Positions 18,086 to 40,532 of a DNA stretch of 64,000 nucleotides are shown here, in pieces (position 1 is the stretch's first letter; each line of letters opens with the position of its first letter). The DNA is from Wenzhouxiangellaceae bacterium (lineage in GTDB: Bacteria; Pseudomonadota; Gammaproteobacteria; Xanthomonadales; Wenzhouxiangellaceae). The DNA lies in assembly GCA_018334995.1 (NCBI GenBank), contig JAGXKW010000011.1, forward strand, positions 1 through 64,000, in the 5' to 3' direction. The notes beneath the pieces were generated by a model. The model made no database searches, was not told the DNA's origin, and was given only the letters and a program-made list of their open reading frames with translations. The translations under genes and the position numbers were made by a program.

Positions 18086-19528
18086 ATGAGCGCAGACACC
18101 TTTCTCTGGCACGACTACGAAACATTCGGCGCCGACCCCAGGCGCGACCGGCCCTGCCAGTTCGCCGCGATCCGCACCGATACCGCGCTGGAACCGGTCG
18201 GCGAGCCGGTGGTGTGGTATTGCAAGCCGGCCAGCGACATGCTGCCTTCGCCCGATGCCTGCCTGATCACGGGCATCACGCCGCAGAAGGCCGAAGCGCG
18301 CGGCATGCCCGAATACGAATTCGCCGGACGCATCTTCGAACTGATGAGCGAGCCCGGCACCTGCGGCGTTGGCTACAACAACTTCCGTTTCGACGACGAA
18401 ATCTCGCGCTTCATGTTCTGGCGCAACTTCATCGACCCCTATGCACGCGAGTTCCGCAACGGCAACAGCCGCTTCGACCTGATCGACCTGCTGCGCATGA
18501 CCCGCGCGCTGCGGCCCGAAGGCATCGAATGGCCGGTCAACGAGGCGGGCAGTCCCAGCTTCCGACTCGAAGACCTTGCCCGCGCCAACGGCTTTTCGAC
18601 CGAGCACGCCCACGACGCGCTGGCCGATGTGGAAAACACGCTGGGCATGGCGCGCCTGGTCCGGCGCTGCCAGCCCAGGCTCTGGCACTGGGGCCTGGGG
18701 CTGCGCGCCCGCCAGCGAGTCGAGCAGCTGGTCGACAAACGCGAAATTCTGTTGCACGCATCGTCGCGCTTCCCGGCCGCCGAGGGCTGTCTGGCACCGG
18801 TACTGCCGCTGTTCCGCCACCCGACGATCAAGAGCCAGTGGCTGGTGTGGAACCTGCGGGAAGACCCCGCCGGGTTCGCGGAATTCGATACCGAGACCCT
18901 CGCCGACCTGTTCTGGACCGCCAATGCCGATCTGCCGGAAGGCCTCAAGCGGCTCCCGGTCAAGTGGATCCGCACCAATCGGTGCCCGATGCTGTCGCCG
19001 ACCGGCACGCTGGATGCCGCGGCCGCCGAGCGCACGCGTATCGATCTGGGCGCGGCCGAACGGCACGCGCAAACGCTTGGCGCCATGCCGGAATTTCTCG
19101 AGCGTCTGGTCGGGGTATTCGTCGCGACCCGACCCGGCCCGGCCTTCGATCCCGAAACGGCGCTCTATGACGGCTTCATGCCCGACGGCGATCGTCGTAT
19201 TGCCGAACAGATCCGCACCCGGCCGCCGGATCGCGCCGCCGCGCTGCTCGACAGCCTGAAAGGCCCGTTTGCCGACCAACGGCTGGCGGAATTGCTGCTG
19301 CACTATGCAGGCCGGCATGCCGAAGCCAGCCTGAACGAATCACAGCGCCGGGCCTGGCAGGACTATCGCCGGCGCCGACTGGTCGATGATCCCGAACTCG
19401 CCCCGCTGCGCGTGGATGAATATCTGCAGCGAATCCAGGAACTGCGCCACGAATTTCCGGGCCATGCGCCACTGCTCGATGAACTCGAGCAGTGGCCGAA
19501 GCATATCGGAATCGACGATCTTGACTGA
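18086..19528 (+). CDS. sbcB: Exodeoxyribonuclease I
   Basis: Processive 3'-to-5' single-strand DNA exonuclease used in repair and recombination. The 480-residue protein starts with the DEDDh motif Exo I (FLWHDYETFGADP, metal-binding Asp/Glu near residues 10-12), and has VGYNNFRFDDE (Exo II) and HDALADVENTLGMARL (Exo III with the catalytic histidine), followed by the SH3-like and helical domains typical of ExoI. Length agrees with E. coli ExoI (475). It is transcribed alone; its downstream gap contains the DnaA-box cluster. Confidence 0.96.
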   Translation: MSADTFLWHDYETFGADPRRDRPCQFAAIRTDTALEPVGEPVVWYCKPASDMLPSPDACLITGITPQKAEARGMPEYEFAGRIFELMSEPGTCGVGYNNFRFDDEISRFMFWRNFIDPYAREFRNGNSRFDLIDLLRMTRALRPEGIEWPVNEAGSPSFRLEDLARANGFSTEHAHDALADVENTLGMARLVRRCQPRLWHWGLGLRARQRVEQLVDKREILLHASSRFPAAEGCLAPVLPLFRHPTIKSQWLVWNLREDPAGFAEFDTETLADLFWTANADLPEGLKRLPVKWIRTNRCPMLSPTGTLDAAAAERTRIDLGAAERHAQTLGAMPEFLERLVGVFVATRPGPAFDPETALYDGFMPDGDRRIAEQIRTRPPDRAAALLDSLKGPFADQRLAELLLHYAGRHAEASLNESQRRAWQDYRRRRLVDDPELAPLRVDEYLQRIQELRHEFPGHAPLLDELEQWPKHIGIDDLD

Positions 19529-19578
19529 AACGAAAAATCAGGAACTTGAAGCAGTTTTCTTGAAATGACGTCGCAGTG

Positions 19579-19779
19579 TTATGCACAATCCCTTGATTTG
19601 ACAATTGACAGTTTCTTTACGCCTGATTCTTCGTGGGATTGCCAGTTCGGGATTTATAAATTATTGTTTAAAATAAAGTTTTTTCGCCTGGTCAAAATTC
19701 GTTCATTTCGTTGACGCGCAGACGACAACGGGCAGGCAGCGTGGTTGCACACAGAGTTTTCCACAGTGATTGTGGATAA
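19579..19779. promoter_or_regulatory. AT-rich gap with three consensus DnaA boxes
   Basis: Three matches to the DnaA box TTWTNCACA occur in 201 bp: TTATGCACA at 19579-19587 (+), TTTTCCACA at 19757-19765 (+), and the perfect TTATCCACA at 19779-19771 (-). The last two face each other six bases apart. Between them and the first box is a strikingly AT-rich segment (19650-19686, including TTTATAAATTATTGTTTAAA) in an otherwise GC-rich region. The gap lies between the converging ends of sbcB and a small orphan gene, so it is not an obvious promoter. It could bind or titrate DnaA, or be origin-like; dnaA, dnaN and gidA are not nearby. Confidence 0.55.
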
Positions 19780-19788
19780 AGATCCGGC

Positions 19789-20052
19789 CTACATCACGGC
19801 CAACGCAAGTTGGTCCGGACAACCGGCCGGCGGCTGACGATACTGCCGTCGGCGCGTGTGTTCGATTGCGCTCTTGAGAATACGGTCGCTGCGCGGGGAT
19901 ACGAATTCGAGCACGCTGCCGTCTTCGAACTGCAGCATCATCACCATCGGGGGTTCGCCTTCACGTCCCGGGCGCGCGATCACGCCGCTGATGCTCTTGC
20001 CGACGATCTGCTCGCGAACGGCACGGCTGGACTGGTTGCTGTTCTGGCTCAT
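19789..20052 (-). CDS. Hypothetical small protein
   Basis: An 87-residue soluble protein of unknown family. Residues about 12-60 (REQIVGKSISGVIARPGREG, VMMLQFEDGSVLEFVSPRSD) read like a small beta-barrel or SH3-like fold, followed by a basic segment (RRRQYRQPPAG). No signal peptide or membrane segment. ATG 20052 is preferred because GAAGGA lies seven bases upstream; ATG 20067 is further 5'. It is downstream of recR on the same strand, 123 bp away, and its 3' end abuts the DnaA-box cluster. No function is proposed. Confidence 0.6.
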   Translation of the reverse strand: MSQNSNQSSRAVREQIVGKSISGVIARPGREGEPPMVMMLQFEDGSVLEFVSPRSDRILKSAIEHTRRRQYRQPPAGCPDQLALAVM

Positions 20053-20150
20053 CCTGCAATCCTTCATTCCGGTTCAGGATGATTGAAGCACGCCGATTTA
20101 TCAAAACCTGAGAAAGCCGCGCCGGATTCCCGGATTTCGGTCCGCGACCG

Positions 20151-22997: not shown

Positions 22998-23735
22998 ATG
23001 AACGCCGACGCGCCTTTGCTCAGCATCATCATCCCGGTCGGCCCGGATGATGATGCCTGGTCCGGACTGCTGGAACGGCTCGACGGTTTTCCGGCGTCCT
23101 GCCAGATCGTGCTCAGCACCTGCGAGCCGATCTGCTCGTGGAACGCACGGCATGACGGTCAGAATCGCGACATGGTCGCGGTACAGGGCCCGCCCGGTCG
23201 CGCCGCCCAGCTCAACCGGGGCGTTGCCGCTGCCAAGGCCGACTGCCTGTGGCTGGTGCATGCCGATTCTCGTCCGGACGCCGCCGCGATGAAAGCCGCG
23301 GCGGGATTCGCCGAAATGTCGCTTATCCGCCCCAGCACGCTGGGCTGGTTTCCTCTGGCCTTCTCCGTCGATGGCCCGCGTCTGGCGGTGCTCAACGCAC
23401 TCGGCGCCAACCTGCGCTCACGACTGTTGCATATGCCGTTCGGCGATCAGGCCTGGCTGATGAGCCGGACGCTGTTCGACCGGGCCGACGGCTTCGACGA
23501 GACCTTCGGTCGCGGCGAAGACCTGGACTTCCTGGTTCGCGCCCGCGCGGCGGGCGCGCGCCTGAAGCGGTTGCGACCGCCGATCCGGACCTCGGCGCGC
23601 CGCTACCGGGAGCAGGGCTGGCTGCGGACAACCCGTGCACATCTCTGGCTTACGCTACGCTTGGGGCTGCGGGCCCGAAGACGGGCCAGACACCGGATGA
23701 CCGGAAACGGAAGCTCCAGGACCAGAAAGACTTGA
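22998..23735 (+). CDS. Family 2 glycosyltransferase, TIGR04283-like (rSAM/selenodomain-associated transferase 2)
   Basis: A 245-residue GT-A-fold enzyme. It starts LLSIIIPVGPDDD, has GPPGRAAQLNRGVAAA and the acceptor/metal segment LWLVHADSRPD (a D-x-D-like pattern near residue 88), then a GWFPLAF segment and FGDQAWLMSRTLFD, all in the order seen in the TIGR04283 family. These proteins usually pair with the TIGR04282 family, as here, and have been tied to arsenosugar-type pathways in some bacteria; no partner radical-SAM gene is in the window. The stop overlaps the next start by one codon step (TTGA). Divergent from dnaX. Confidence 0.82.
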   Translation: MNADAPLLSIIIPVGPDDDAWSGLLERLDGFPASCQIVLSTCEPICSWNARHDGQNRDMVAVQGPPGRAAQLNRGVAAAKADCLWLVHADSRPDAAAMKAAAGFAEMSLIRPSTLGWFPLAFSVDGPRLAVLNALGANLRSRLLHMPFGDQAWLMSRTLFDRADGFDETFGRGEDLDFLVRARAAGARLKRLRPPIRTSARRYREQGWLRTTRAHLWLTLRLGLRARRRARHRMTGNGSSRTRKT

Positions 23736-31691: not shown

Positions 31692-31778
<87 letters not shown>

Positions 31779-31848
31779 TCTCTTGCTCGATTCGAGGCGT
31801 CGCAATGCGGCCTGCATGCGGCCAGTCGCGGTTAGAATACGCCTGCAT

Positions 31849-31933
31849 GCCGAGGTGGCGGAACTGGTAGACGCGCCAGGTTTAGGTCCTGGTGGGATTT
31901 CCCGTGGAGGTTCGAGTCCTCTCCTCGGCACCA
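31849..31933 (+). tRNA. tRNA-Leu (anticodon TAG)
   Basis: An 85 nt class II tRNA with the same acceptor stem as its neighbour and anticodon stem-loop CCAGG-TTTAGGT-CCTGG (anticodon UAG, reading CUA and by wobble CUG). The variable arm and encoded CCA are present. It lies 70 nt after the first tRNA and is probably cotranscribed. A distant inverted repeat (ATGCCGA at 31933, TCGGCAT at 31968) follows but makes a poor terminator. Confidence 0.97.
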
Positions 31934-40241: not shown

Positions 40242-40532
40242 CTAGTCTCCGAGCGCGCGGTTGACGCGCTCGCGCAGGTCCTTGCCGGGTTTGAAATGCG
40301 GTACGTGCTTGCCGGGAAGAGCGACCGAGTCGCCGGTCTTGGGGTTGCGGCCGATGCGGGGCGGCCGGAAATGGAGACAGAAACTGCCGAACCCCCGGAT
40401 TTCGATGCGATCGCCATCGGCAAGGGCGGCGCTCATCTGCTCGATGATCGACCGGACCGCGAGATCAACGTCGGTCTGGCTCAGGTGCTTTTGTTCCTCA
40501 GCAAGCTTTTCTATCAGCTCGGACTTCGTCAT
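40242..40532 (-). CDS. ihfB: Integration host factor subunit beta
   Basis: DNA-bending architectural protein, heterodimer partner of IhfA. The 96-residue protein shows the HU/IHF core: [33 protein letters not shown] and [24 protein letters not shown], with the conserved proline at the tip of the DNA-binding arm. GGAG lies upstream of ATG 40532. It is downstream of rpsA, as in E. coli, beyond the hairpin at 40555-40574. Confidence 0.97.

Follow-up and report, generated by a model that had tools for sequence, protein, structure and literature searches.

In E. coli, the cores of the DnaA-reactivating sequences DARS1 and DARS2 consist of three equally spaced DnaA boxes, with box I lying opposite to boxes II and III (PMC5742627), and ChIP-seq has found the same II-III double boxes at both loci (PMC11317965). 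ADP-DnaA has been described as sitting head-to-head on boxes I and II (PMC8682772), IHF and Fis aid reactivation at DARS2 (PMC4245941), and E. coli DARS are inactivated by transcription passing through them (PMC5010248). In the excerpts of the literature that we consulted, DARS2 is described as conserved among relatives of E. coli, reaching as far as Vibrio and Shewanella, and a search of titles and abstract openings, with few subscription papers among them, returned no description of a DARS in Wenzhouxiangellaceae. Here we describe an intergenic gap within a 64-kb stretch of DNA (hereafter the window, meaning the whole stretch that was analysed) which, with good confidence, we read as a DnaA-reactivating sequence of the DARS2 type, carried by a Wenzhouxiangella-like gammaproteobacterium. 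On this best reading, it would be a DARS2-type element outside the E. coli relatives in which DARS2 has been described, and its probable role is in the clock for chromosome replication, not that of an origin. The case is built from features read in the DNA, namely the core layout, fixed spacings, conservation, position in relatives, and genes for DnaA, a Fis-like protein, and IHF-alpha.

The gap is convergent, with sbcB on the plus strand ending at 19528 and a minus-strand ORF of 92 amino acids ending at 19789. Both sbcB (exonuclease I) and recR were confirmed by Pfam and NCBIfam, the genes next along are YbaB and DnaX by Pfam, and the closest named relative of this sbcB is that of Wenzhouxiangella sp. 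XN79A (66% identity). The 92-aa ORF had no Pfam match at 0.001, and its best NCBIfam match (E 0.13, 11.1 bits) is not meaningful, in keeping with the description of the neighbours as sbcB and an orphan gene in an earlier note on this DNA. This ORF accompanies the element and recR. Rfam identified only two tRNAs over the window, neither of them in the gap, and a structured RNA there was rejected; the two tRNA genes are adjacent, at 31692-31930 on the plus strand. The convergent setting fits a DARS, since transcription inactivates these elements in E. coli. It had also been taken to argue against a promoter, and we agree: a DnaA-regulated promoter or a terminator structure serving sbcB or the 92-aa ORF is very improbable, as both genes end into the gap with no gene start near, and a second locus has the same layout beside a different gene. 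Such a role would draw on boxes II and III forming a “double DnaA box”, the form preferred by E. coli DnaA in ChIP-seq (PMC11317965), and on the facing boxes being an inverted repeat.

The earlier note had listed three TTWTNCACA matches across 201 bp and an AT-rich run in the gap, and all of these are where it placed them, the run at ~19654-19687 (Table 1). The space between the facing boxes had been given as six bases and is 5 (19766-19770), and a fourth and weaker box (box III) and the IHF-type and Fis-type sites had been overlooked. Its view that such a group is unlikely by chance was borne out, as the window holds 4 strict matches against 0.92 expected, a number reached or exceeded in 1 of 100 shuffles; a further strict match lies within sbcB, at 18628 on the minus strand. 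Strict DnaA boxes number only 35 in the 2.98-Mb genome, 19 of them forward and 16 reverse, where the reversed control pattern occurs 12 and 16 times, and because the boxes are so few, we regard three boxes in 201 bp as a real cluster. Elsewhere in the genome, two strict boxes of the same orientation lie 53 bp apart on contig 19 (3675-3736).

Table 1. Features of the element and its neighbouring ORF, in window coordinates. Element coordinates count from box I as position 1.
Feature	Position	Strand	Sequence	Remarks
Whole element (class A)	19579..19779	-		201 bp; inferred DARS2-type DnaA-reactivating sequence
Far DnaA box	19579..19587	+	TTATGCACA	Orientation as boxes II and III
IHF-type site 2	19586..19598	-	AATCAAGGGATTG	Element +182; perfect; 2-bp overlap with far DnaA box
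IHF-type site 1	19657..19669	-	AAACAATAATTTA	Element +111; 1 mismatch to WATCAANNNNTTR; inside AT-rich run
Fis-type palindrome	19690..19704		GAACGAATTTTGACC (on minus)	Element +76; 1 mismatch to GNNYAWWWWWTRNNC
DnaA box III	19745..19753	+	TTGCACACA	2 mismatches to TTWTNCACA; 3 bp from box II, same orientation
DnaA box II	19757..19765	+	TTTTCCACA	Head-to-head with box I, 5 bp between
DnaA box I	19771..19779	-	TTATCCACA	Element position 1; element read on minus strand
92-aa ORF	19789-20067	-		Conserved beside element, 61-75% identity in relatives

Read on the minus strand, the core of the window element is TTATCCACA-N5-TGTGGAAAA-N3-TGTGTGCAA. The DARS1 core of E. coli MG1655 is TTATCCACT-N5-TGTGGATAA-N3-TGTGTATTA, and the best match in DARS2 is TTATTCACC-N5-TGTGGATAG-N3-TGTGAAGAA, an assignment that is supported by its agreement with the published double box. 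The window element thus has three boxes, the first oriented against the other two, in exactly the I-N5-II-N3-III layout of both E. coli cores, and its box III takes the position of box III in DARS1 and DARS2. A scorer for this layout, allowing at most 3 total mismatches, matched once in each E. coli DARS stretch, once in the 64-kb window, and once in contig 65 of the same genome. It found no core in the E. coli datA stretch, the oriC stretch, or three dnaA regions, and no site with 2 or fewer mismatches in 78 shuffled windows.

We then looked at related genomes, where a search with the gap DNA matched 9 of 61 genomes, including its own. Most of these loci have the same boxes adjoining sbcB and the 92-aa ORF, with 177-179 between the far box and the pair; the exceptions are L005, which has no strict boxes, and L008, in which box II is degenerate. 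The boxes are therefore conserved next to sbcB in relatives, and the absence of such conservation was one of the outcomes that the earlier note had said would count against it. The facing pair TTWTCCACA-N5-TGTGGAWAA was present in 56 of 61 genomes (reversed control, 0), and when the space between perfect boxes was left free from 0 to 30 bp, 50 of 61 genomes gave 74 pairs in all, 69 of them separated by exactly 5 bp. The five others had 12, 16, 17, 17, and 28 bp, and at least one of them, a 17-bp case in G056, reads as boxes I and III on either side of a weaker box II.

The pattern of far box plus pair occurred in 27 of 37 genomes, namely all 23 Wenzhouxiangellaceae and 4 of 14 others. With spans of 173-203 bp allowed, the 36 found in the family fell into two equal groups, 18 at 184-188 bp and 18 at 195-201 bp, with none between. 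We extracted 35 elements with a far box and a facing pair and classed them by neighbouring gene: 17 adjoin sbcB and/or the 92-aa ORF (class A, including the window element), 12 adjoin a gamma-carbonic-anhydrase gene (class B), and 6 adjoin neither. The same genome has a class B element on contig 65 (7389-7601), which follows the same plan, is ~11 bp longer, and adjoins a gamma-carbonic-anhydrase gene. In the three complete relatives there is likewise a further copy near dnaA, ~11 bp longer, with one more helical turn separating core and flank. Among 80 named sbcB loci, the core was found at only 4 (L094, L095, L128, and L141), which means that a location beside sbcB is not the rule outside this lineage.

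The flank between the core and the far box is also patterned. Calling sites by sequence match to consensus, we found a Fis-type site with at most 1 mismatch at +75/+76 in all 17 class A elements (shuffles: mean 3.44, maximum 7), 11 of them perfect (shuffle mean 0.30). An IHF-type site with at most 1 mismatch was likewise present in 17 of 17 (shuffles: mean 4.62, maximum 11) and perfect in 8 (shuffle mean 0.27). These IHF-type sites are located around +110 and +182, except that L003 has its sole site at +101. In class B, 9 of 12 elements have an IHF-type site with at most 1 mismatch, 3 of them perfect, and those on the element strand begin at +120 to +122. Fis matches are weak in this class: none is perfect, and the 6 of 12 with at most 1 mismatch do not exceed the number reached in shuffles (maximum 7). 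All 6 unclassified elements have a perfect match, at +76 or +88. By sequence match, the window element therefore has IHF sites in its flank as the DARS2 subtype does, and its conserved Fis-type site lies on the core side of IHF rather than beyond it, where FBS2-3 lie in E. coli. The element may act as DARS2 does, although its flank is no copy of that of DARS2.

A wider survey looked for this plan across the Gammaproteobacteria. Of 377 gammaproteobacterial genomes, 176 have two perfect facing boxes no more than 30 bp apart, and a strict filter, combining the 5-bp pair spacing with a perfect match to the IHF consensus at any of the 31 positions from +99 to +129, gave 49 matches in 48 of the 377, with 0 in the control. 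The IHF starts of these 49 fell into two groups, 4 at +108-111 (one at 108, two at 110, one at 111) and 45 at +119-123 (one at 119, four at 120, 21 at 121, 16 at 122, three at 123), with none elsewhere in the allowed range. Thirty of the 49 matches could be read as loci, and the counts for box III and the flank cover these 30. Box III had 0 mismatches in 4, 1 in 19, and 2 in 7. In 13 of the 30, a perfect Fis consensus preceded the IHF site by 34-35 bp (shuffles, anywhere: mean 0.65, maximum 4), and there was no perfect Fis match at any other place in them. Sixteen of the 30 had a far box TGTGNATAA between +195 and +216 (shuffles: mean 0.27, maximum 2), while the opposite orientation, TTATNCACA, was found in none. 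In tblastn searches, sbcB, the 92-aa ORF, and the carbonic anhydrase had no match at any of the 30 loci. These spacings bear on the idea of a passive titration site that binds DnaA without affecting its nucleotide state. With only 35 strict boxes in the genome, any cluster would bind some DnaA, but titration needs boxes only, with no call for gaps fixed at 5 bp and 3 bp, for an IHF-type site at +110 or +121, or for a Fis-type palindrome 34-35 bp ahead of it; we consider it quite unlikely.

The position of the two copies was judged in relatives, as the genome of the window is in 129 contigs, of which the window is contig 106. We placed dnaA by PF08299, used it as a stand-in for oriC, and calculated arm positions by hand; dif-like sites were found with an E. 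coli-like pattern, which gave one match per genome, with 1-2 mismatches, in 4 genomes. Along the dnaA-dif arm, the class A copy lies at ~86% in G017, ~64% in G015, and ~93% in G022, and the class B copy at ~5%, ~6%, and ~5%, respectively, 92-109 kb from dnaA. GC skew changes sign near 1.9-2.0 Mb in G017, and in the stretches read, in 10-kb windows, the cumulative skew reaches its lowest value 25-35 kb ahead of dnaA in G017 and, in G015, 15-25 kb past it. Because skew and dif-like sites put oriC near dnaA, neither copy is the origin. That the gap is an origin of replication, active or relic, is extremely improbable: its AT-rich run, DnaA boxes, and IHF-type site recall parts of oriC, but the skew minimum, which the earlier note had proposed to check, is elsewhere, within ~35 kb of dnaA in G017 and G015, the dif-like sites and class A positions place the element far from dnaA, skew has no turn at the gap within the 64-kb window, and the E. 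coli oriC stretch has no such core. The class B copy was also considered as oriC and rejected, as the skew minimum is nearer to dnaA in G017 and G015. The oriC of the present genome is likely the dnaA-dnaN gap on contig 53 (~23215-23467), which has one strict DnaA box, several weak ones, and an AT-rich stretch.

Position also bears on a datA-like role, in which an IHF-bent cluster of boxes would stimulate ATP hydrolysis on DnaA and lower initiation. In the published excerpts, datA too joins DnaA boxes with one IHF site, and the second copy lies near dnaA, as datA lies near oriC. Against this, the head-to-head core is a property of DARS1 and DARS2 that is missing from the E. coli datA stretch, and a site located 64-93% of the way towards dif in three genomes would double late, which does not suit an inactivating site; a datA-like role is unlikely. 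The earlier note had offered titration, datA or DARS, and an origin as options. The DARS option has strong support from the core layout, the IHF-type site, and conservation. The datA option is unsupported for want of the core, and the origin option because of the element's distance towards dif and a skew turn near dnaA.

Genes for DnaA, a Fis-like protein, and IHF-alpha are present. An E. coli Fis query matched in 41 of 41 genomes, with 36% identity over 81 residues in the genome of the window; in G003 and G023 the best match is weak, lies in a ~480-aa frame, and is probably not Fis. The IHF-alpha model matched in 21 of 21 genomes, 19 of them over the cut-off, with the genome of the window just under it (75 of 96 positions). 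The Hda model also matched in 21 of 21, but only 4 were over the cut-off and some matches are DnaA itself; the Hda-like match in the genome of the window scores 124.4 bits, short of the 194.8 set for the family. A HU/IHF-like gene lies within the window at 40254-40532 on the minus strand, with 61.8 bits to the IHF-alpha model, below the cut-off.

For a DARS2-type element, we infer protein binding, DNA looping, and nucleotide exchange along the following lines. ADP-DnaA would bind head-to-head, on box I and on the box II-III pair, in the manner of the E. coli DARS core. The flank would be bent by IHF ~110 bp from box I, with Fis on the palindrome lying between this site and the core, and the DnaA bound at the far box would be drawn back in the direction of the core. 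Release of ADP from the strained DnaA dimer would follow, and apo-DnaA would depart and rebind ATP, providing more ATP-DnaA for the next initiation at an oriC near dnaA. Weak points of this reading are the 2 mismatches in box III, the single mismatches in the Fis-type site and the first IHF-type site, the placing of the Fis-type site and the orientation of the far box relative to E. coli DARS2, the poor Fis matches of class B, the arm positions unlike those in E. coli, and the Hda-like match under its cut-off.

We give an even chance to a broader proposal, namely that DARS is a class-wide module of the Gammaproteobacteria and not an enteric invention, with a rigid plan of core, Fis site, IHF site, and far box in two phased forms (+108-111 and +119-123) that coexist near the origin and towards the terminus in Wenzhouxiangellaceae. 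At E. coli DARS2, some 10-bp moves of sites are reported to be tolerated better than 5-bp moves (PMC4245941), in line with two natural forms that differ by one helical turn. These two forms amount to a natural experiment on whether IHF-driven bending must point one way. If the proposal is true, an origin-near and a terminus-ward copy together could report the progress of replication to DnaA. The spacing rule, which picks out these sites from sequence alone, makes DnaA reactivation testable across the class, beyond E. coli and its near relatives.

Compared with known systems, the gap shares DnaA boxes, IHF and Fis sites, and an AT-rich stretch with E. coli oriC, but oriC is without a DARS core and the skew turn is elsewhere in element-bearing relatives. 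E. coli datA is also a non-coding stretch with DnaA boxes and an IHF site that modulates DnaA, but its boxes are arranged without a head-to-head 5-bp pair and a third box at 3 bp, and the window element does not have that arrangement. DARS1, in the bioD-uvrB gap, has a core of the same layout and spacing, but is short, at 101 bp (PMC5742627), and its first 300 bp contain no IHF-type match with at most 1 mismatch. DARS2, in the rppH-mutH gap, has the same I-N5-II-N3-III core, an IHF-type site at +110 (+111 in the window element), and a DNA-repair gene adjoining the gap (mutH there, sbcB here). Its IHF-type matches, at +94 (minus) and +110 (plus), are 3 bp apart, as are the published IBS1-2 (PMC4245941); the +110 site, at ~2969245 of NC_000913.3, has the class A offset from box I. 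Unlike the window element, DARS2 has its essential Fis sites beyond the IHF sites (PMC4245941) rather than between core and IHF, and its next perfect box (+212) is in the opposite orientation, whereas the far box here (~+193) is oriented as boxes II and III and is overlapped by the second IHF-type site. The neighbours here are sbcB and recR rather than mutH, and the arm positions differ, with two copies at opposite ends of the arm (~5% and 64-93%). Because of its core-side Fis-type site, its far box fused with an IHF-type site, and its two copies, we regard the element as a putative variant of DARS2.
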